From positions 62,001-126,000 of the forward strand of contig NZ_JAQTLS010000006.1 in assembly GCF_028714775.1 (NCBI RefSeq): DNA of 64,000 bases, read 5' to 3'. Positions 41,207-60,657 of the stretch are shown here, piece after piece. The notes under the pieces are model-generated. The model searched no databases. It saw only the letters and a program-made list of their open reading frames with translations, and was not told the origin of the DNA. The DNA is from Thiothrix sp. GTDB taxonomy: Bacteria; Pseudomonadota; Gammaproteobacteria; Thiotrichales; Thiotrichaceae. Position 1 is the stretch's first letter; each line of letters begins with the position of its first letter. Position numbers and translations under genes: made by a program.

Positions 41207-42927
41207 TGTCAGAGGTTGTTTCAAACAGGGCAGCATTCAAACCGTTTCACTTCTGGAGCCACCGAGTCTCACAGTGTCTTAATCCCTTCTCAAACAGGGC
41301 AGCATTCAAACCTGTGTTTGAGCTGCTGAAACGCGCGGGCTACCCCCTTAATCCCTTCTCAAACAGGGCAGCATTCAAACGATTGATACATGATCTGACT
41401 GAAAAGTGTTGGTACCCTTAATCCCTTCTCAAACAGGGCAGCATTCAAACCCTTTGGCCGTTGGCTGGAATGTACAGTTTGTGTCGCCCTTAATCCCTTC
41501 TCAAACAGGGCAGCATTCAAACGCCGTCACTCCGAAAGCAAAGGTGAAGGCCGCAGGTGTCTTAATCCCTTCTCAAACAGGGCAGCATTCAAACGCCCTT
41601 AGCGAAGGGCAACATTTTAAGATGGCCGTCTTAATCCCTTCTCAAACAGGGCAGCATTCAAACCTTTCTGGATTTACTGCTGGAGTAGCTTTTTTCAGTC
41701 TTAATCCCTTCTCAAACAGGGCAGCATTCAAACCGCAGTTGCCAAAGCACTGGAGGCTGTAAAAGTGTCTTAATCCCTTCTCAAACAGGGCAGCATTCAA
41801 ACAATGGAATCCATAACGCTGCTGGTACTCTTGTAACGTCTTAATCCCTTCTCAAACAGGGCAGCATTCAAACTAAGATGGCCTGTATTGGCGCAACCAC
41901 TGAGAATGTCTTAATCCCTTCTCAAACAGGGCAGCATTCAAACAGATAGATTTGTTAACTTCCTTAAAGTAGGAAGGTCTTAATCCCTTCTCAAACAGGG
42001 CAGCATTCAAACAGGAAGATTAAAATAATAGGCAGCAACACTACCGTCTTAATCCCTTCTCAAACAGGGCAGCATTCAAACGGCAATGTTATCGTCAGTA
42101 CCGTATGCAGCTATTAGTCTTAATCCCTTCTCAAACAGGGCAGCATTCAAACTTTAAGGCCATCTATACTGGTTTTCTGAAGTTAGTCTTAATCCCTTCT
42201 CAAACAGGGCAGCATTCAAACACTGTCTTGGTATTGGGTATGCCAAGGTGATTGAGGTCTTAATCCCTTCTCAAACAGGGCAGCATTCAAACTCATCAGC
42301 GACTGAAAGCTTCATCTCTACTGGTAGTCTTAATCCCTTCTCAAACAGGGCAGCATTCAAACCTATTACCCCAAGTACTTCCATACTTGAGCTAAAGTCT
42401 TAATCCCTTCTCAAACAGGGCAGCATTCAAACTCCAGTTCAACAAATCAATGATGCCGCGCTGAATGGTCTTAATCCCTTCTCAAACAGGGCAGCATTCA
42501 AACCTGAAGAGCATAATTTAGTTGCGTCTGTGGTTACGTCTTAATCCCTTCTCAAACAGGGCAGCATTCAAACACGCTGGGCGTGGACCACACTGGTTAA
42601 TGGTGTGAAGTCTTAATCCCTTCTCAAACAGGGCAGCATTCAAACGGTACCATTGAGGAAGTCAACAGTTATGTTGATGTCTTAATCCCTTCTCAAACAG
42701 GGCAGCATTCAAACTTTCTGCAAAACAGGAAACAGTTGGCGATCTATTAGTCTTAATCCCTTCTCAAACAGGGCAGCATTCAAACATTAAATGACAGGAT
42801 AGAGACGCCGAACGAGTTTAGTCTTAATCCCTTCTCAAACAGGGCAGCATTCAAACGGTTGATGTTGACGATATTGAAGATGGTTATGATTGTCTTAATC
42901 CCTTCTCAAACAGGGCAGCATTCAAAC
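41207..42927 (-). CRISPR. CRISPR array 1: 25 repeats, 24 spacers
   Basis: The repeat is 36 nt, with spacers of about 32-37 nt. On the plus strand it starts GTCTTAATCCCTTC and ends CAGCATTCAAAC; full copies end at 41311, 41380, 41450 and so on to 42927. The first repeat (to 41242) has a scrambled 5' half, and repeats 3-5 differ in the first three bases, so decay lies at the left end. Read on the minus strand the repeat holds a CCCT/AGGG hairpin followed directly by the 8-nt ATTAAGAC, the position expected for a Cas6 cut and crRNA 5' tag. I therefore place the leader to the right, between the array and the adaptation genes, with leftward transcription. Confidence 0.97.
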
Positions 42928-43176
42928 CCCGTGCTTCGTAAAAATATTTTAAATTTCAACGAGTTGCGGTGTATGAAAAATGACATCAAATCGACACTTC
43001 AGAGTTAGCATTTTACAGCGCATGGATCGAATACGAATAGACCAGTAACAGCCATACACGACATGGTTTCAGTCGACAAATTTTACAAGAACATGGGTAA
43101 ACACCATTACCCATACCTCCATAATAAAACGAAACGCTCAGCCGGACTATGTTTTTCCGACCAGCGCCGCATAAGA
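42928..43176 (-). promoter_or_regulatory. Probable leader of array 1
   Basis: An AT-rich gene-free 249 nt separates the intact terminal repeat from the reverse transcriptase stop codon. New spacers would be inserted at 42927. It includes an A/T stretch right beside the repeat (TAAAAATATTTTAAATTTC). I could not identify a confident promoter. Confidence 0.55.
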
Positions 43177-43185
43177 TTATGCGGC
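43166..43185 (-). other. Perfect hairpin spanning the RT stop codon
   Basis: GCCGCATAA-GA-TTATGCGGC is a 9-bp perfect stem with a 2-nt centre (plus strand), overlapping the last codons of the RT gene. It has no U-tract on the minus strand, so it is more likely a processing or RNA-stability element than a terminator. It separates the adaptation operon from the array leader. Confidence 0.55.
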
Positions 43186-44019
43186 AACCCGTCTGGCCTC
43201 TGGCAACGGCTCACCGAGGAAGATGACCCGGCGGTTACTACGGATGACGCGGGTTTTCTCTGGGTGCAACGTCAAGCCCATGTCATTGAGTTTTTTACGG
43301 GCGAACACCAAGGCTTTTTCTGCCTTACCCTGATCGGTGGCGAACAACAGGAAATCATCCGCAAAGCGCACGAATGGGATGTGGGCATTACCCAATGCTT
43401 GGTCAAACTCGTTCATGTACAAGTTGCAGAACATCGGTGACAAAATCGCCCCTTGCGAAATCCCCCGCGAAGTCCCAAACAAGCTGCTGCTGTGGACACC
43501 CTGTTTCAGCCATTTGTCGATCAGGTTGAGTGCGTCGCTGTCTTTGATGAAGGCTTTCAACTTCTTTTGCAGTGGCGTCAGCGGGATATTGTCAAAGAAC
43601 TTGCTGATGTCCGCATCCACCAGCCAATCCTGCCCGATCCGCACCCGTTCCTTGGTCTTGTCCAAGGCCATTTTGACACTGCGCCCACGCCGGTAAGCGT
43701 AGCTGTCATGATGGAAAATGGCCTCTGCATTCGGTTCCAGCACAATCAGCAAAGCACGCTGCACCAGCTTGTCCCGCAAGTATTGCGCAGAAATGATACG
43801 TTGCTTGCCATCGGGCTTGGTCATTGCAAACTGGCGCAGTGGCTCCGGCTGGTAACGCCCGGATAATACATCCTCCCGGCAAGTCAGCAAGTGGCGCATC
43901 AGGTTGCGCTGCAACTGGTCGCGGTCAACCGTCACCGACCACGGCGTATGCTCGGTTTTCAGCAAATTCCATGCCTTGTCCAGAATGTCAGGCTGCATCG
44001 CCGTTTCAAGAATGCTCAT
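43177..44019 (-). CDS. CRISPR-associated group II-intron-like reverse transcriptase
   Basis: A 280-aa RT without fused Cas1 or Cas6. The RVT_1 core is intact: RDKLVQRALLIVLEPNAEAIFHHDSYAYRRGRS is split in motif order, then LVDADISKFFDNI (motif with the first catalytic Asp), GISQGAILSPMFCNLYMNEFD and the VRFADDFLLF active site (FADD variant of YADD). There is no intron maturase or endonuclease domain. Coupled to cas1 and cas2 upstream, it probably lets the adaptation complex take spacers from RNA, as shown for RT-Cas1 in other type III systems. It is the last gene of the adaptation operon. Confidence 0.93.
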   Translation of the reverse strand: MSILETAMQPDILDKAWNLLKTEHTPWSVTVDRDQLQRNLMRHLLTCREDVLSGRYQPEPLRQFAMTKPDGKQRIISAQYLRDKLVQRALLIVLEPNAEAIFHHDSYAYRRGRSVKMALDKTKERVRIGQDWLVDADISKFFDNIPLTPLQKKLKAFIKDSDALNLIDKWLKQGVHSSSLFGTSRGISQGAILSPMFCNLYMNEFDQALGNAHIPFVRFADDFLLFATDQGKAEKALVFARKKLNDMGLTLHPEKTRVIRSNRRVIFLGEPLPEARRVAA

Positions 44020-44034: not shown

Positions 44035-45030
44035 TTATCCCAAATCAGTTTGCTTTAACACATCACGCACACGCATCACCTGCCCATTGATGATTTCCCC
44101 CAAACCCGCGTGGGGCCAATCGCCACCCCCATCAGGACAAAATGGGCGCGGGCAATGCTGGCGGAATTGCGCCCAAGCCGCATAAAACAGTGGGCGCACC
44201 CCCTTGCTCAGGCGGCAACCTTCGGCTTCACGGTAGTAAAAACTGCCCTTATCCAAGCGGGTGTTATGCAACCACCCCAACACAAAGGCATCCACACTGG
44301 CGCGGAAGATTTCCAGCACATCCAGCGGCAAGGACTCACGTCCCGGATAATCTTGGTGCAAAAAACCCAACGCCGGGTCGAACCCCGCCAGCAACACGGC
44401 ATGGCGCACTTCCCCCAGCATCAGCGTATACCCCAACGACAACAACGCATTGACCGGATCACGCGGCGGTTGGCGGTTGCGCCCATTGAACCCCCATGGT
44501 TCTGCCAGCACTGTCCCTAACAGGGCAAACCATGCTGCCGCCACTTGGCCTTCCAACCCGGTGAGGCTATTGATGCTGGCGGCATCCGGCAGTTTCGCCA
44601 AGGTTTGTGTCACCTGTTGTTGGAAACGCTGCACGCCATCAGGGTCAGCAGCAAACAGGCTTTGCAAGCATTGTGCAGGCAAGCTGTAACCCAACAGTTT
44701 TTGTTGCACGACATAACGCGCCATCACTAACTGTTTGCCCGCGTCATCAGCACAACGGTGTTGCATCCGGCGCACGGGCAATTGGGTTGCCAAGCCAGCC
44801 CCCAAAAAGGCCGTTTGTTGCTTGCCACGCAAGTCCACCAAGATGGCGGGCACACCCGCATCAGCCAAGGCACGCCACACCGCGCTTTCCACCAACGGGT
44901 TGCCGTAGACCACAACCTGCCCCAACATCTGGATGGGCACAGTTTTGGCAGGTTCGTCCGGGCGTTCGATACGTAATGCCCCCGTGACATGGCGCACGGT
45001 GGTTTCTTTACGGTCAATGACCAGTAACAT
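44035..45030 (-). CDS. cas1: CRISPR-associated endonuclease/integrase Cas1
   Basis: A 331-aa Cas1. The N-terminal beta domain includes VVVYGNPLVESAVWRALADAGVPAILVD. The helical catalytic domain shows LSLGYTLMLGEVRHAVLLAGFDPALGFLHQDYPGRESLPLDVLEIFR, broken into the metal-binding Glu (GEV), His (FLHQ) and Glu/Asp (LDVLE) positions. It integrates spacers at the leader end of the arrays with Cas2. It lies 12 nt after cas2 and 15 nt before the RT. Confidence 0.96.
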   Translation of the reverse strand: MLLVIDRKETTVRHVTGALRIERPDEPAKTVPIQMLGQVVVYGNPLVESAVWRALADAGVPAILVDLRGKQQTAFLGAGLATQLPVRRMQHRCADDAGKQLVMARYVVQQKLLGYSLPAQCLQSLFAADPDGVQRFQQQVTQTLAKLPDAASINSLTGLEGQVAAAWFALLGTVLAEPWGFNGRNRQPPRDPVNALLSLGYTLMLGEVRHAVLLAGFDPALGFLHQDYPGRESLPLDVLEIFRASVDAFVLGWLHNTRLDKGSFYYREAEGCRLSKGVRPLFYAAWAQFRQHCPRPFCPDGGGDWPHAGLGEIINGQVMRVRDVLKQTDLG

Positions 45031-45042
45031 GGTTCCCCTCCT

Positions 45043-45375
45043 TTACCCAAATAAGGTTTGCACGACACGACCTATCCAGCCCTGTTCCGGCGTAGCAGCG
45101 GCTTTGCCCGCATACAGCCCTTGCATGGCATTGCTTTGTTGCCCCGCAGCCCAAATGCTGTGCGGCGAATTCACCGGGTACAGGCGGATGTCATCCTCAC
45201 GCAGATGCGCCCGTTCACGTACCCCTTGCAGCGTTTGGGCAAGGTCAGCCGCCGAGCAATGCAGCAAAAACACCGATTTTTGCAGTGGCACGGCCTGTTT
45301 TTTCAGGTAGTAATGCACCTTGCGCAAGCGTTTCTCATCACGCACGTCATACGCCAGAATGTGCCATTGCTTCAT
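45043..45375 (-). CDS. cas2: Cas2 (first of two tandem copies)
   Basis: A 110-aa Cas2. The beta-1 strand HILAYDVRDEKRLRKVHYYLKKQAVPLQKSVFLL is diagnostic, with Asp in AYDV. The domain is followed by a C-terminal extension of about 30 residues that other Cas2 proteins here lack (ending GWIGRVVQTLFG). It resembles the 109-aa Cas2 of array 2 more than its tandem neighbour, judging by the LKKxAxPLQxSVFL block. Confidence 0.9.
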   Translation of the reverse strand: MKQWHILAYDVRDEKRLRKVHYYLKKQAVPLQKSVFLLHCSAADLAQTLQGVRERAHLREDDIRLYPVNSPHSIWAAGQQSNAMQGLYAGKAAATPEQGWIGRVVQTLFG

Positions 45376-45378
45376 GGG

Positions 45379-45666
45379 CTAACCCTCGTACCAAAGTGGC
45401 GCTTGGAAATGGTGGTTTTGCTTGACCGCCGTCACCATGCGCGGGGTGCGTTGCTTATCCATCCACGCCAGCATCAGGCTGTCCGTTTGCGGGTCGATTA
45501 ACCCACTGAGTTGCAGGAACAGCTCCTCCGCCTCCCGCGAACCCAGTTGGCACTCAAACAGCGAGTATTGGGAAGCCAGCCCCCACGCCTTCAGGCAACG
45601 GTGTACCTGACGGCGGCGGCTGTTTTCCACAATGTCGTAAGCGATGACGGCGGCGCTGCGTTTCAT
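45379..45666 (-). CDS. cas2: Cas2 (second tandem copy)
   Basis: A 95-aa Cas2-family protein: AVIAYDIVENSRRRQVHRCLKAWGLASQYSLFECQLG at the N-terminus matches the beta-alpha-beta core. The C-terminal part (ACR: WMDKQRTPRMVTAVKQNHHF) is different from the other copies. Its start overlaps the radical-SAM stop (ATGA) and its stop is 3 nt before the next cas2, so all are translationally coupled. Two unlike Cas2 proteins could form a heterodimer or one may have lost function. Confidence 0.87.
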   Translation of the reverse strand: MKRSAAVIAYDIVENSRRRQVHRCLKAWGLASQYSLFECQLGSREAEELFLQLSGLIDPQTDSLMLAWMDKQRTPRMVTAVKQNHHFQAPLWYEG

Positions 45667-46436
45667 GCGTTGACCCCTTGCAGCATGTCCACATGGAAGT
45701 TGTCCGCTGTACCGATCACGTCACTGTCGAGGGCGCGGCGCACACCATCCGCACCGATGAACAGCGCATTATCATGCTGGTTGTGTTCTGCGCCGCAGCG
45801 TTTGTGGAAGACGCGGTGTGCGCCATCGGTGTGCAGCCAGTCACCGCAGGCTTGACGGCTGTAACCGAGTTTTTCCCAGTTCACGGTGCGCAGGTTAGCG
45901 GTGCAGGTATCATCACCGAACATCTCGATCACCTTGCAGTCCACGCCCAGTTCACGGGTGCGTTTCACGAACTCAGCAGTTTCCTGCACGTCACGCAGTG
46001 GGTGGTTGACCCGCAGTTGCACGGGGAACTGTTGCGCGAGGCGGATGCTGCCTAGCACGTTGTGGATGCTGATGCCCATGCTGGCCTGTTGCGTTGCCGG
46101 GTCGAACGAGTCGATGTGCATTTTCAGCTCGTCGAGGTACGGCAGGGCGGCTTGCAGCAGTTGCGGATGGCCTGCGTGTGAGTCCATCGAGACGTGCGTG
46201 CCGGTAGCTTTGCACTGGCGGGCGATTTCACCCACTTGCTTGTGCAGGGTTGGTTCACCACCGCTGAGGATGATTTCCGCCGGAACGATGTTCGCCGCCG
46301 CCAGTTTGTCGAGGATCGACGTGACCGTGTGCAGATGCAGCAATGATGCACCTTGTTTGTCCTGCCCTTCGTTGTGGCAGTAAGCGCAGGTAGCCGTGCA
46401 GCGGCTGGTCAGCAGGAAGCGGATTTTCAGTGCCAT
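45663..46436 (-). CDS. Radical SAM protein embedded in the CRISPR adaptation operon
   Basis: A 257-aa radical SAM enzyme. The 4Fe-4S/SAM motif Cys13-x3-Cys17-x2-Cys20 (CTATCAYC) lies near the N-terminus; the SAM-contact motif IILSGGEPTLH follows, in a MoaA-like fold. The C-terminal half has four more cysteines (GVDC, DDTC, RQAC, KRCG), which might bind an auxiliary cluster. It overlaps cas2 by 4 nt and follows four micropeptide ORFs. Such neighbours suggest a peptide-modifying (RiPP-like) enzyme, but a nucleotide-modifying role for the adaptation complex is also possible. No known CRISPR function comes to mind. Confidence 0.9.
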   Translation of the reverse strand: MALKIRFLLTSRCTATCAYCHNEGQDKQGASLLHLHTVTSILDKLAAANIVPAEIILSGGEPTLHKQVGEIARQCKATGTHVSMDSHAGHPQLLQAALPYLDELKMHIDSFDPATQQASMGISIHNVLGSIRLAQQFPVQLRVNHPLRDVQETAEFVKRTRELGVDCKVIEMFGDDTCTANLRTVNWEKLGYSRQACGDWLHTDGAHRVFHKRCGAEHNQHDNALFIGADGVRRALDSDVIGTADNFHVDMLQGVNA

Positions 46437-46526
46437 GCGGAATCACCTCATTGGTTATTGCGTTTGTGGGAGTTGAATGGTTCGCATAGGGTTGGGCAGC
46501 CCCGCAGGGCTACCCGCTGGTGTGCG

Positions 46527-46637
46527 TCAGCGTTTGGTATCGCATTTGCACTTGTGTTTGAGGATGGTTGTCACCACCGCGATGGTGATCGGGATGATGA
46601 TGTCCGTGAGGACGGGGGCCGCAATGATTGGCAGCAT
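46527..46637 (-). CDS. Micropeptide 4 (36 aa), hydrophobic with basic Cys-x-Cys tail
   Basis: A 36-codon frame starts ATG at 46637 with AAGGAG 8 nt upstream. The first 27 residues are Ile/Val/Thr/Pro-rich (IIIPITIAVVTTIL), and the end is HKCKCDTKR, a basic tail with Cys-x-Cys. The ending TxILxHxCxCD matches micropeptide 2 nearly residue for residue, so the two are homologous. It is the last peptide before the radical-SAM gene (90 nt). Too short for automatic gene callers; coding status rests on the SD, spacing and homology within the cassette. Confidence 0.7.
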   Translation of the reverse strand: MLPIIAAPVLTDIIIPITIAVVTTILKHKCKCDTKR

Positions 46638-46658
46638 GGTTGTTCTCCTTGTGTCGGT

Positions 46659-46733
46659 TTAGGGTTTGTTGCAGGGGCAGTTGGCTTTAGCGACAACAGC
46701 CGCGACGATCATGACGATTAGGATAATGGGCAT
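46659..46733 (-). CDS. Micropeptide 3 (24 aa), hydrophobic with Cys-x-Cys tail
   Basis: A 24-codon frame with start at 46733 and GAAGGAG 7-8 nt upstream. It has a strongly hydrophobic stretch (IILIVMIVAAVVA) then AKANCPCNKP, so again a C-terminal Cys-x-Cys. It ends 21 nt before the start of micropeptide 4. It may be a membrane-associated peptide or a modification substrate of the radical-SAM protein. Confidence 0.68.
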   Translation of the reverse strand: MPIILIVMIVAAVVAKANCPCNKP

Positions 46734-46813
46734 AGTGTTCTCCTTCGCTTTTACGGATTACTGTGTTTATTTTGTGCAGGTGGCCTTATGACCGCCTGCA
46801 CGTTGGTTGTGGC

Positions 46814-46894
46814 TCAGTCGTCGTTGTCGCAGTCGCAGTTATGGTCGAGGATTACGGTGACGATGGCAGTGATGATGTTGATGATCAGGTTCAT
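46814..46894 (-). CDS. Micropeptide 2 (26 aa), hydrophobic with acidic Cys-x-Cys tail
   Basis: A 26-codon frame, start at 46894, preceded by TAAGGAGG 5-6 nt upstream, the strongest SD in the cassette. The N-terminal part is Ile/Val-rich (LIINIITAIVTVIL). The tail DHNCDCDNDD is acidic with Cys-x-Cys, the charge opposite of micropeptide 4. The TVIL-x-HxCxCD pattern is shared with micropeptide 4. Confidence 0.72.
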   Translation of the reverse strand: MNLIINIITAIVTVILDHNCDCDNDD

Positions 46895-46957
46895 GGTTGC
46901 CTCCTTAACGGCGTGTAATAAAGTGGGCGTAGGTTAAGGCATTTGGATGGCTGCTTA

Positions 46958-46989
46958 ACCGATGGCAAACTTGCGAACTTGCCATCGGT
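46958..46989 (-). other. Long hairpin between micropeptides 1 and 2
   Basis: A perfect 11-bp stem ACCGATGGCAA/TTGCCATCGGT around a 10-nt loop sits 8 nt after the stop of micropeptide 1 and 64 nt before micropeptide 2. It lacks a U-tract. It may limit downstream transcription or protect the mRNA end, so that micropeptide 1 is made in different amounts from the rest. Confidence 0.6.
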
Positions 46990-46996
46990 CGGTGTC

Positions 46997-47101
46997 TCAG
47001 TGGACGATGATTACGTCGTGGAGGATGTCCCACCAATCACGTGGACGGCGGGCATGGAACGGGAAGTGCTTATCCTTGGGGATACGTGGGATGCAGTTCA
47101 T
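46997..47101 (-). CDS. Micropeptide 1 (34 aa), Trp/His/Arg-containing
   Basis: A 34-codon frame, start at 47101, with GAGGA 8-10 nt upstream. Unlike the other three it is not purely hydrophobic: it has MNCIPRIPKDKHFPFH, then RRPRDWWDILHDVIIVH. It is the first gene after the intergenic region that separates the adaptation operon from the CARF gene. Homology to the other peptides is not evident. Coding is plausible from its SD and position. Confidence 0.55.
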   Translation of the reverse strand: MNCIPRIPKDKHFPFHARRPRDWWDILHDVIIVH

Positions 47102-47165
47102 GTTGTTGTCCTCATCTGTTGTTTCGATGGGGACAGTTTGAATGAAAAAATCAGGGCAACGATTT

Positions 47166-47180: not shown

Positions 47181-48344
47181 TTAAAAAATGGGCTTCTTGA
47201 GTTGTTTTACAGGGTATTCAAAACTGATGTGTTCAGGCTTCAACTCGTCAGATAAGCTGTATTGCATGGCGTTTTTTTTTCCGCTTGATTGTAGTAAATA
47301 GGCTTTTGCTTTGGGCTTGCCGAGTGTCGCATTAAGTTTTTTATTAATGTTCGTGCGTGGTGCACCAAAGTAGTCGGTATCCATGCTATTAACGCTCTCC
47401 TCAGCATGGATGTAATGTCCAGATTCCTTGGATAGTTCGGCATAAACGGCTTTGAATTCTTCGGCAAGTACCGACTTTGTCACTTTGTCAGCTAACGTAA
47501 TGACAACTTTTCCGGCTTTGTGACGTTGCAACATCCATACATATAATGCCAGTTGAGCAGGTGGCAACTTGATTTCTTCCCCGCCGCAATACAGTGTTAC
47601 CACAGCCTCGTAAACGATACGCACGCTAATAGGTGCAAGCTGCCTTTGAGCAATGGCGATAATGTCGCTGTAACTTTTGTCGGAGTCATTCAATAAATCA
47701 TCAGTCAAACCATCACGCAGGCGGATGAAGGGTAATTTGCCCAGCATTACGTTGACATCGCGGGCATCGAAGCTATCACCCGTCCACTGGTTGGTAATTA
47801 TCTGACTCTGTGCAGTGGGGTAGTAAAAACCGGGTACAGCGTAGCGGTCATCGACCAATACATGTGACATACAGTCTTGGATGCGTCCGAAAACTGACAT
47901 GGCGTAACCAAGATAATAGGTCATAGTCTTACGTCCACCAGCAATGGAAACATGCAGGCTGGAATCTTCTTTTGTCAGTTTGCGCACTTTATCGGTGATG
48001 AAGTTTGCGGCAATTTCATTTTCTTCTGATGTGGTAATGTCATTCAGATACCGCTTGTCTTTACCAATGCAGCACAGGTGAATTTTGTTGGAAGCGGGGG
48101 GTATCATTCCATAGTCACGATACAGTTGGTAAATCTTGCCCGTATCACCCAGCAGTTTTTCTTGTAGATTTGCGTAAACTCCTGCTGTGGTGATGATATA
48201 TATTTCCGTCGGCAGATAAGGTGGTTCTGCTTTTTGGGTCAGTGCGTAAAGTGTTTCAGTAACAATCGCAGGTGTGCCGCCTGCGACCGCCAATAAAATA
48301 CGCTGCTCAAAGTCTTCCGGTTTGGTTTTAGTTATTGTTGTCAT
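47181..48344 (-). CDS. CARF protein, NE0113/TIGR02584 family (Csm6-like), with winged-helix-like C-terminus
   Basis: A 387-aa protein. The N-terminal CARF domain starts ILLAVAGGTPAIVTETLYALTQ and includes the second CARF motif VSIAGGRKTMTYYLGYAMSV, the usual cyclic-oligoadenylate pocket. The C-terminal 150 residues (GGEEIKLPPAQLALYVWMLQ, then NINKKLNATLG and GKKNAMQYSL) look like a winged-helix domain rather than HEPN; no Rx4H motif is seen. It overlaps csx2 by 17 nt and ends the csx16-csx2 operon. A paralogue lies at 59506-60633. It could be a cOA-controlled regulator or a ring nuclease. Confidence 0.85.
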   Translation of the reverse strand: MTTITKTKPEDFEQRILLAVAGGTPAIVTETLYALTQKAEPPYLPTEIYIITTAGVYANLQEKLLGDTGKIYQLYRDYGMIPPASNKIHLCCIGKDKRYLNDITTSEENEIAANFITDKVRKLTKEDSSLHVSIAGGRKTMTYYLGYAMSVFGRIQDCMSHVLVDDRYAVPGFYYPTAQSQIITNQWTGDSFDARDVNVMLGKLPFIRLRDGLTDDLLNDSDKSYSDIIAIAQRQLAPISVRIVYEAVVTLYCGGEEIKLPPAQLALYVWMLQRHKAGKVVITLADKVTKSVLAEEFKAVYAELSKESGHYIHAEESVNSMDTDYFGAPRTNINKKLNATLGKPKAKAYLLQSSGKKNAMQYSLSDELKPEHISFEYPVKQLKKPIF

Positions 48345-59505: not shown

Positions 59506-60633
59506 TTATGCGCCCATAATAAACGTCAATGATGCTGCTGGCAACGTGATTCCAAATCTTGTCACAGGACGGTTGCCATGTGCCTGCAACAAATACGGTT
59601 TTGCGCCAGCGATACCCAATGTTTTTTTTAGTATTTTGTGGGTGTTGGACTTGCGCTCATCGAACCATGCCTTATTCATGCCGCCTTTGAGGGCGTGCGC
59701 AACTTGTTCAAAGCTGCCATTTTCCCCGTGCAGGCGGGCATAAACACCCAGAAATTGGGTTGCCAATGACGGCGTTTCGCTATCTGTCCAATGGATAGGG
59801 GGAAGGTCGCGCATACGCCTTTCCAACATCCAAACATAAAATGCCAATTGCACGGGTTGCATAGCTACGGGCACAGAACCACAGGTCAGTACCGCACGAT
59901 TCCAGTCAAAATGCACTTTAGGCAGGTCAAAACCCCGTTGGGCGGCGGCGATAGTGGCGCTGAACGTGCTGCTGCCTTCCAGTAAATCACTTGGCAATCC
60001 ATCACGCAGGCGCACAAAGGGAATATCTGCCAACGTCACGTTAACCGCCGATGCATCAAAGTCCGCGCCATCCCGGTCTTTCAGCCAGCAGGTTTGTGGG
60101 GGTGGGTAGTAAAAATCCTTGAGGAAAAAATAGCAGTCATCCACCAATACATGCTTGAGTCGGTCTTGCGGCCTGCCAAACAGCGACAATGCGTAGCCAA
60201 TGTAATACGTCATGGTGCGGCGACCACCTGACAACAATGCACACAAACTTGACGTTGGGTCGGCGGTAAATTGCTGCAAGCGGTGGCTAATAAAATCTGC
60301 GGTATGTTCATTATCCTGCTCTGAGCGCACATCCCATAACACCTTATTTTGATGGTCAGTAATCAAATGAAACACGGGTGTCGTGCAGGCCATCGGTAAG
60401 CCGTAGTCCTGACACAAGCGCAGCAACCAGCCGTTATGCACGAGTGCTTGCTGTACCAGATCACACCCACGTTCGGTGGTAATGATGTGAATCTCGGTTG
60501 GAATGTAGGCGGGTTCAGAGGTTTGGGTGAGGGCGTAGAGTGCCTCAGTAATGGTTTGGGGCGAATAGGCTTCGACTGCCACGAGGATGCGGCGCGGGTA
60601 GGTATGGGGCGTGGGTATCGGTGTTTGCTGCAT
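59506..60633 (-). CDS. Second CARF protein of the NE0113 family
   Basis: A 375-aa paralogue of the protein at 47181. The CARF start ILVAVEAYSPQTITEALYALTQTSEPAYIPTEIHIITT, and ALLSGGRRTMTYYIGYALSLFGR, match the first protein position by position; the C-terminal PVQLAFYVWMLERR block is also shared. The differing CARF loop (EAYSPQT against AGGTPAI) may change ligand choice. The ATG at 60633 leaves it 24 nt from the degenerate end of array 2, so it may be read from the array's transcript; I see no palindrome in front of it. Confidence 0.84.
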   Translation of the reverse strand: MQQTPIPTPHTYPRRILVAVEAYSPQTITEALYALTQTSEPAYIPTEIHIITTERGCDLVQQALVHNGWLLRLCQDYGLPMACTTPVFHLITDHQNKVLWDVRSEQDNEHTADFISHRLQQFTADPTSSLCALLSGGRRTMTYYIGYALSLFGRPQDRLKHVLVDDCYFFLKDFYYPPPQTCWLKDRDGADFDASAVNVTLADIPFVRLRDGLPSDLLEGSSTFSATIAAAQRGFDLPKVHFDWNRAVLTCGSVPVAMQPVQLAFYVWMLERRMRDLPPIHWTDSETPSLATQFLGVYARLHGENGSFEQVAHALKGGMNKAWFDERKSNTHKILKKTLGIAGAKPYLLQAHGNRPVTRFGITLPAASLTFIMGA

Positions 60634-60657
60634 GTGGGAATTATAGCCAACAAACAC

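Follow-up and report, generated by a model that had tools for sequence, protein, structure and literature searches.

A row of four micropeptide genes in the window, by which we mean the whole 64,000-nucleotide stretch of Thiothrix DNA analyzed here, is part of a variable set of micropeptides at one reverse transcriptase (RT)-containing type III-B CRISPR locus, and this set was found in five Thiothrix genomes. Substitution patterns indicate that the frames encode selected micropeptides. The peptides are independent of the radical SAM enzyme (rSAM) encoded next to them in the window, as two of the five arrays occur without it; the enzyme is optional, and at most peptide 4 follows it. Therefore, rather than just supplying the enzyme with substrate, the micropeptides are probably an accessory component of CRISPR that has gone unrecognized.

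Four micropeptide genes in a type III-B CRISPR locus

The minus strand of the window carries a type III-B locus. Cas10/Cmr2, Cmr4 and Cmr6 were identified by profile matches, and further frames lie at the positions expected of Cmr1, Cmr3 and Cmr5. The locus also encodes a CARF-HEPN protein and a CARF5/NE0113 protein. On this strand, the type III-B genes are followed by four micropeptide frames, the rSAM gene, two cas2 genes, cas1, RT and a CRISPR array, in the following arrangement.

47181..48344, minus strand, CARF5/NE0113 protein (TIGR02584), directly upstream of the micropeptide array
46997..47101, minus strand, micropeptide 1, 34 aa, not hydrophobic, with a DWWDI(I)L motif also present in T. 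lacustris and Ca. T. singaporensis
46814..46894, minus strand, micropeptide 2 (family 2/D), 26 aa, transmembrane-like, acidic tail; its profile gave one strong match per locus-bearing genome (n = 5)
46659..46733, minus strand, micropeptide 3, 24 aa, transmembrane-like, tail NCPCNKP; by eye like families C/E of the loci without rSAM
46527..46637, minus strand, micropeptide 4, 36 aa, transmembrane-like, basic tail; by eye in 3/3 loci with rSAM and 0/2 without it
45663..46436, minus strand, radical SAM protein, 257 aa, CxxxCxxC, an optional partner without a Pfam SPASM match
45379..45666, minus strand, cas2a, profile match (Pfam, NCBIfam)
45043..45375, minus strand, cas2b, profile match (Pfam, NCBIfam)
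44035..45030, minus strand, cas1, profile match (Pfam, NCBIfam)
43177..44019, minus strand, reverse transcriptase, separate from cas1, profile match (Pfam, NCBIfam)
41221..42936, no strand assigned, CRISPR array of about 25 repeats, beside RT

The order rSAM-cas2-cas2-cas1-RT had been claimed in the original prediction and was upheld by both Pfam and NCBIfam. The genes of rSAM and cas2a overlap by four bases. With cas1, cas2 and RT adjacent, the segment is an RT-containing CRISPR adaptation module, and the micropeptide array is linked to type III genes by the presence of Cas10/Cmr2, Cmr4, Cmr6, CARF-HEPN and CARF5 at the same locus. The window has a second CARF5/NE0113 gene at 59506-60657, which is about 40% identical to the array-adjoining copy and has no micropeptide array.

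The coordinates, lengths and Shine-Dalgarno (SD) sequences predicted for the four minus-strand frames were all correct. The SD sequences are, in order, GAGGA, AAGGAGG, AAGGAG and AAGGAG, and the calculated SD duplex of micropeptide 1 (-7.3) is no weaker than those of micropeptides 3 and 4 (-6.7). A hydrophobic stretch with a CxC in the tail is indeed present in three of the peptides, and micropeptides 2 and 4 do share TxILxHxCxCD, followed by acidic and basic tails, respectively. These two appeared to be paralogues of opposite charge, with 9 of 18 residues identical in stretches lined up by eye. We also surveyed SD-led ATG frames of 16-60 codons, requiring a strong SD, in 364 kb of the same genome (the window and 15 further stretches of 20 kb). 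Among the 61 frames found, the single run of three or more was the window array. The array is thus more than a chance cluster of micro-ORFs.

Arrays in other Thiothrix genomes

A Cas1 match at E<=1e-30 was present in 12 of 16 Thiothrix genomes, and a close cas1 orthologue (Cas1 77-100% identical) in only five of them: the window genome (G000), G007, T. lacustris (G011), G003 and Ca. T. singaporensis (G004). In each of the five, several small SD-led frames stand in a row, with the CARF5 region on one side and rSAM or cas2a on the other. The rows comprise 4, 9, 4, 6 and 4 micropeptides, respectively (n = 27), a count from which we dropped frames within the rSAM gene, a single 15-codon frame of Ca. 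T. singaporensis (locus L006), and one GTG frame and a 54-codon frame of G007 (locus L040). The latter 54-codon frame, with CxxC pairs and zinc-finger-like by eye, lies between the G007 array and cas2a (L040 6765-7200), where there is also a 30-codon acidic frame. In L006, no intact cas2a frame was found between rSAM and cas2b, perhaps because of an assembly error. Ca. T. singaporensis has a second RT and Cmr locus with its genes in pieces (L057, 4800-16000).

A search for the order peptide-rSAM-cas2-cas1-RT in related genomes had been proposed with the original prediction. The peptide rows recurred in all five loci, but rSAM in only three. In G007 and G003, no rSAM match was found at E<=1e-10 or 1e-30, despite their nine and six micropeptides and the same cas2-cas2-cas1-RT module. 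Family 1 (by weak similarity plus position) and family 2/D are present in loci both with and without rSAM, and so, by eye, is one further family. Micropeptide 4 is the only family confined to the rSAM loci, again by eye.

A profile of peptide 2 matched every one of the five array genomes strongly and just once (E 6e-13 to 2.5e-8). These matches follow by construction, as the profile was built from the same five sequences; it is informative for the single copy and for absence elsewhere. In the other 11 Thiothrix genomes it returned only noise, i.e. seven weak matches (best E 0.14) and four genomes with none. The 5/16 split of peptide 2 coincides with that of cas1, which has a chance of 1 in 4368 if the genomes are taken as independent, which they are not. 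The prediction had placed the peptides in spacer acquisition or its control. It is borne out that the peptides are coding and conserved, and that in the 16 Thiothrix genomes peptide 2 occurs at this CRISPR locus only; nothing in the analysis ties them to spacer acquisition as such.

A CARF5 homologue lies upstream of the array in all five loci and adjoins it in three. In G007, another gene lies between CARF5 and the array; in Ca. T. singaporensis, the intervening gene is transposase-like by eye. CARF5 was considered as a specific partner of the micropeptides and found unsupported, since of 63 genomes in the family 24 carry CARF5 relatives.

There was no such array upstream of cas2a in eight related RT-cas1 loci (L020, L024, L025, L026, L042, L054, L055 and L056). 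These are part of 11 other cas1 loci, from which L021, L022 and L023 were left out, and one of the eight belongs to a more distant Thiothrix (G002). Therefore, the adaptation module appears to be widespread and the array to have been added to it in a particular lineage. At five of these loci (L042, L020, L024, L054 and L055), a gene that recurs among them and is coiled-coil-like by eye lies upstream of cas2a, where the Thiothrix loci have the array.

Selection on the peptides

The Ka/Ks-type check proposed with the original prediction came out in favor of conservation. For six orthologous pairs of G007 and G003 (156 codons), pooled pN/pS was 0.386, i.e. 0.39 (bootstrap 0.25-0.585), and it was above 1 in the shifted frames of the same alignment (1.1 and 1.4). 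The differences at the three codon positions numbered 23, 16 and 39. Single families of this pair ranged from 0.19 to 1.02, the latter value being that of family B. For the peptides of the rSAM loci, three families were concatenated. Their pN/pS was 0.58 (0.41-0.85) between the window genome and T. lacustris, 0.76 (bootstrap 0.52-1.10) between the window genome and Ca. T. singaporensis, and 0.61 (0.41-0.96) between the latter two species. Compared with these values of 0.58-0.76, the rSAM gene had 0.22-0.32. The dN was likewise 0.25-0.45 for the concatenated peptides versus 0.08-0.15 for rSAM, so the amino acids of the peptides change faster. Peptide 4 gave 0.69-0.96, and peptide 1, compared between loci with and without rSAM, gave 0.76-1.1 with synonymous sites far diverged. 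Together, the pooled values and the single comparisons near 1 indicate that purifying selection acts on the peptide set taken together, which nonetheless evolves fast; the single comparisons are not all convincing.

Hydropathy, tails and cysteine spacing

By hydropathy alone (a 15-residue Kyte-Doolittle mean >=2), 16 of the 27 array peptides are transmembrane-like; in the genome sample, the same holds for 1 of the 34 other SD-led micro-ORFs with 18-40 codons. The remaining 11, peptide 1 included, missed the limit. All three rSAM loci combine an acidic tail on peptide 2 with a basic tail on peptide 4. A Met-Pro start is present in 10 of the 27 peptides.

CxC occurs in 7/27 array peptides when 1.03 are expected, and none of 20,000 permutations reached this number; residues were shuffled within peptides, and the excess is inflated by related peptides. 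Enrichment of cysteine itself was rejected as an argument, since the content is 4.3% in array peptides and 4.4% in other SD-led micro-ORFs; the CxC spacing remains as one. The tail CxC had been predicted to be a conserved feature, and this did not hold. It is not kept in the orthologues of peptides 2 and 4 at the two nearest loci, where the cysteine positions differ, although CxC recurs across arrays.

Hairpins around the frames

Four hairpins were found in and around the array of the window.

47107..47135, minus strand, hairpin; its 3' arm includes the SD of micropeptide 1; counterpart in 5/5 arrays, with the stem interrupted in some
46957..46990, minus strand, hairpin following micropeptide 1; each of the five arrays has a counterpart, z -2.8 to -6.0
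46773..46802, minus strand, hairpin after micropeptide 2, without a T run on the minus strand
46493..46516, minus strand, GC-rich hairpin after micropeptide 4; counterpart in 5/5 arrays (after family D in those without rSAM)

The folding energy of the SD hairpin was 3.5 to 7.9 standard deviations below that of shuffled sequences in the five arrays (z -3.5 to -7.9). In its stem, 86.7% of cells were paired, compared with 25-62% in slid controls, with mismatches in some arrays; covariation in the five-array alignment was not above control. A strict pattern of this hairpin was found in 3 of the 16 Thiothrix genomes, at the array locus only, and was not found among viral sequences. The copies of T. 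lacustris and Ca. T. singaporensis have few-base differences, visible in the alignments. The ribosome-binding sites of the other small frames are generally more open than that of peptide 1; low accessibility is not unique to it, as peptide 2 of the window and the rSAM starts are similar.

Proposed role of the micropeptides

We tentatively favor the reading that fast-evolving membrane micropeptides serve as accessory effectors of the type III-B RT-CRISPR system, with rSAM optional, while regarding it as somewhat less than an even bet. Many of the peptides would span the inner membrane once, and they would share a transcript with the neighboring CARF and adaptation genes. The first frame may be held back by the hairpin over its ribosome-binding site, so that the set would be poised for production once infection leads to remodeling of the transcript. 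The site of action of the peptides would be the membrane, where they would either form small pores or perturb the membrane potential; in this way they would add an accessory effector arm to the type III-B response, with a role comparable to that of Cam1, Csx23 or Csx28. In the rSAM loci, the acidic-tailed and basic-tailed peptides might pair, and rSAM may alter the basic one (peptide 4). Co-transcription, membrane insertion, the effector role, gating, charge pairing and the modification of peptide 4 are steps that we infer. That the peptides turn over rapidly is in keeping with an arms race. More doubtful is the fuller proposal that hypervariable, hairpin-gated polycistronic transmembrane micropeptides are a previously unseen CRISPR component, namely the membrane arm of an RT type III-B system, one of which is tailored by rSAM in some lineages.

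The radical SAM enzyme and alternative explanations

The rSAM of the window has a radical SAM Pfam domain and the CxxxCxxC motif, and no Pfam match to SPASM. Its family is rare. Overlapping sets of 57 genomes (at 1e-10), 369 (1e-30), 398 (1e-40), 2 (1e-25) and 63 (1e-30) were searched, and five distinct genomes among those searched carry it: the window genome, T. lacustris, Ca. T. singaporensis, G023 and G091. Viral sequences gave one partial match of 33%; among plasmids, there were three weak rSAM matches and three records with short cas1 matches. The relative in G023 (48% identical; L008 6444-9117) lies beside two GTPases with AIG1/IRG-type matches. It has no small-ORF array in front, and no cas gene was seen by eye within 10 kb.

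G091 belongs to another family of the same class. Its rSAM, 55% identical, is part of a type III-B locus (L019 6027-10760), where it lies between cmr6 and a set of cas2, a broken cas1 and cas2. The cas1 is reduced to two short pieces, and a nine-copy CRISPR array lies behind the locus. This rSAM is also preceded by SD-led hydrophobic frames of 18-77 codons. Five frames were chosen by eye from 15 listed, the other 10 being dropped, and three of the five passed the hydropathy limit. Since they did not match the peptide-2 profile and are without comparative support, the parallel with the Thiothrix array is suggestive only.

The original prediction regarded the peptides as substrates or partners of rSAM. 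A corresponding explanation is RiPP-like maturation, in which one or more micropeptides, with peptide 4 as the likeliest, become the active molecule through modification by rSAM. Peptide 4 adjoins rSAM in the three loci that have the gene and is absent by eye from the two that lack it, so for this peptide alone the distribution is the one expected of a substrate. Small hydrophobic frames precede each of the four rSAM genes that were found at CRISPR loci, the arrays contain more CxC than expected (a figure inflated by kinship), and SuiB, a RiPP rSAM, is among the structural matches described below. However, two of the five arrays have no rSAM, and the rSAM of G023 has no array. The enzyme lacks a Pfam SPASM match; only rSAM, cas2a, cas2b and cas1 lie between the array and RT, with no protease or exporter gene there; and CxC, as a candidate core, is not kept in orthologues. 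On balance we consider this explanation unlikely.

A rather improbable alternative is that rSAM acts on a nucleotide or small molecule, like viperin or MoaA, and was recruited to defense, with the micropeptides being unrelated to it. MoaA is the best NCBIfam profile, with prokaryotic viperin close behind, and the enzyme has the size of viperin. Foldseek with the AlphaFold model matched viperin, SuiB and MoaA; viperin had the best E-value and MoaA the highest query TM-score listed (0.57). The model itself is weak (pLDDT 62, three sequences), however, and both profile scores are far below the cut-offs: 48.7 bits versus 180 for viperin (NF038283), in a match limited to the N-terminal ~118 residues, and 55.2 versus 325.25 for archaeal MoaA.

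An addiction module that protects the CRISPR locus, with the peptides as its type I toxin-like or CreTA-like toxins, is quite improbable. Small type I toxins have a similar size and hydrophobicity, and the SD sequences are strong, as this explanation would have it. Nevertheless, a Pfam scan of ten frames, eight from the 27 Thiothrix peptides and two from G091, gave no toxin match at E<=10; the ten yielded two marginal, implausible matches, in a scan in which HMMER filters drop most weak ones. Degenerate CRISPR repeats of the CreTA kind were sought with single-base shuffles, and nothing beyond shuffles was found in the five Thiothrix regions. In the window, 8 and 44 of 100 shuffles scored as high on the two strands, and in the other four regions 17 to 83 of 100 did (the L005 region being scored with the repeat of the window). 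In L019 of G091, a 15-base match to the CRISPR repeat was reached by 2 of 100 shuffles; it lies within a stem followed by a T run.

Still less probable is that the frames and stems are leader peptides and hairpins regulating translation or decay of the cas2-cas1-RT part, with the peptide products secondary, since, despite the hairpins between frames, the SD hairpin and the place directly before the adaptation genes, the amino acids are under selection in the pooled test, hydrophobic and charged character is kept while the sequence changes, and the arrays differ in how many frames they hold (4 to 9).

If translated micropeptides are indeed, as the accessory-effector reading would have it, a regular constituent of some type III loci, they would be an overlooked layer of CRISPR biology. 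To our knowledge, surveys of CRISPR accessory genes ignore frames as short as these. A membrane effector made of units of 20-39 aa, if real, would be smaller than any CRISPR effector known to us. The five arrays make the idea testable, as they offer defined peptides and natural versions with and without rSAM, one of them in a named strain, T. lacustris DSM 21227. In their main texts, neither the 2025 CRISPR classification (PMC12669027) nor two papers on RT-CRISPR systems (PMC5513706, PMC5541045) contains "radical SAM" or "peptide"; PMC5379612 mentions radical SAM once. Literature listings and the starts of abstracts gave nothing relevant on rSAM, small frames or microproteins at CRISPR, type III or RT loci, which does not establish absence from print.

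Comparison with known systems

In RiPP clusters with radical SAM maturases, small peptide genes lie directly before the radical SAM gene, and the window shows the same arrangement. The present loci differ in having arrays without the enzyme, no SPASM match, no exporter or protease gene from the array to RT, and cysteines that are not kept in orthologues. With prokaryotic viperin (pVip), the enzyme shares the radical SAM core, a similar size and the best structural E-value, but its score is far below the family cut-off.

The type I toxins Ibs, TisB and Fst are tiny hydrophobic peptides with a charged tail. Here, by contrast, the peptides form a polycistronic row in a CRISPR locus, and the ten frames scanned had no Pfam match to such toxins. 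CreTA elements are described as small elements beside cas genes that accompany type I effectors and have an RNA toxin (PMC8501985, PMC10097628). The micropeptide genes are likewise small elements next to cas genes, but the system is type III-B, selection acts on the peptides, and no degenerate repeat was found in the five regions.

Cam1, Csx23 and Csx28 are single larger proteins, with a nucleotide-sensing part in Cam1 and Csx23. Cam1 and Csx23 are described as CRISPR-encoded accessory proteins acting at the membrane (PMC10808066, PMC11014256), and Csx28 as a partner of Cas13b that also acts there (PMC12669027). Unlike the type III membrane effectors, the array peptides, with 20-39 aa, have no room for a domain sensing a second messenger, so that sensing could occur only in trans. 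They resemble Cam1, Csx23 and Csx28 in being CRISPR-encoded and in their proposed action at the membrane, whereas the form is different: a variable row of several peptides of 20-39 aa.
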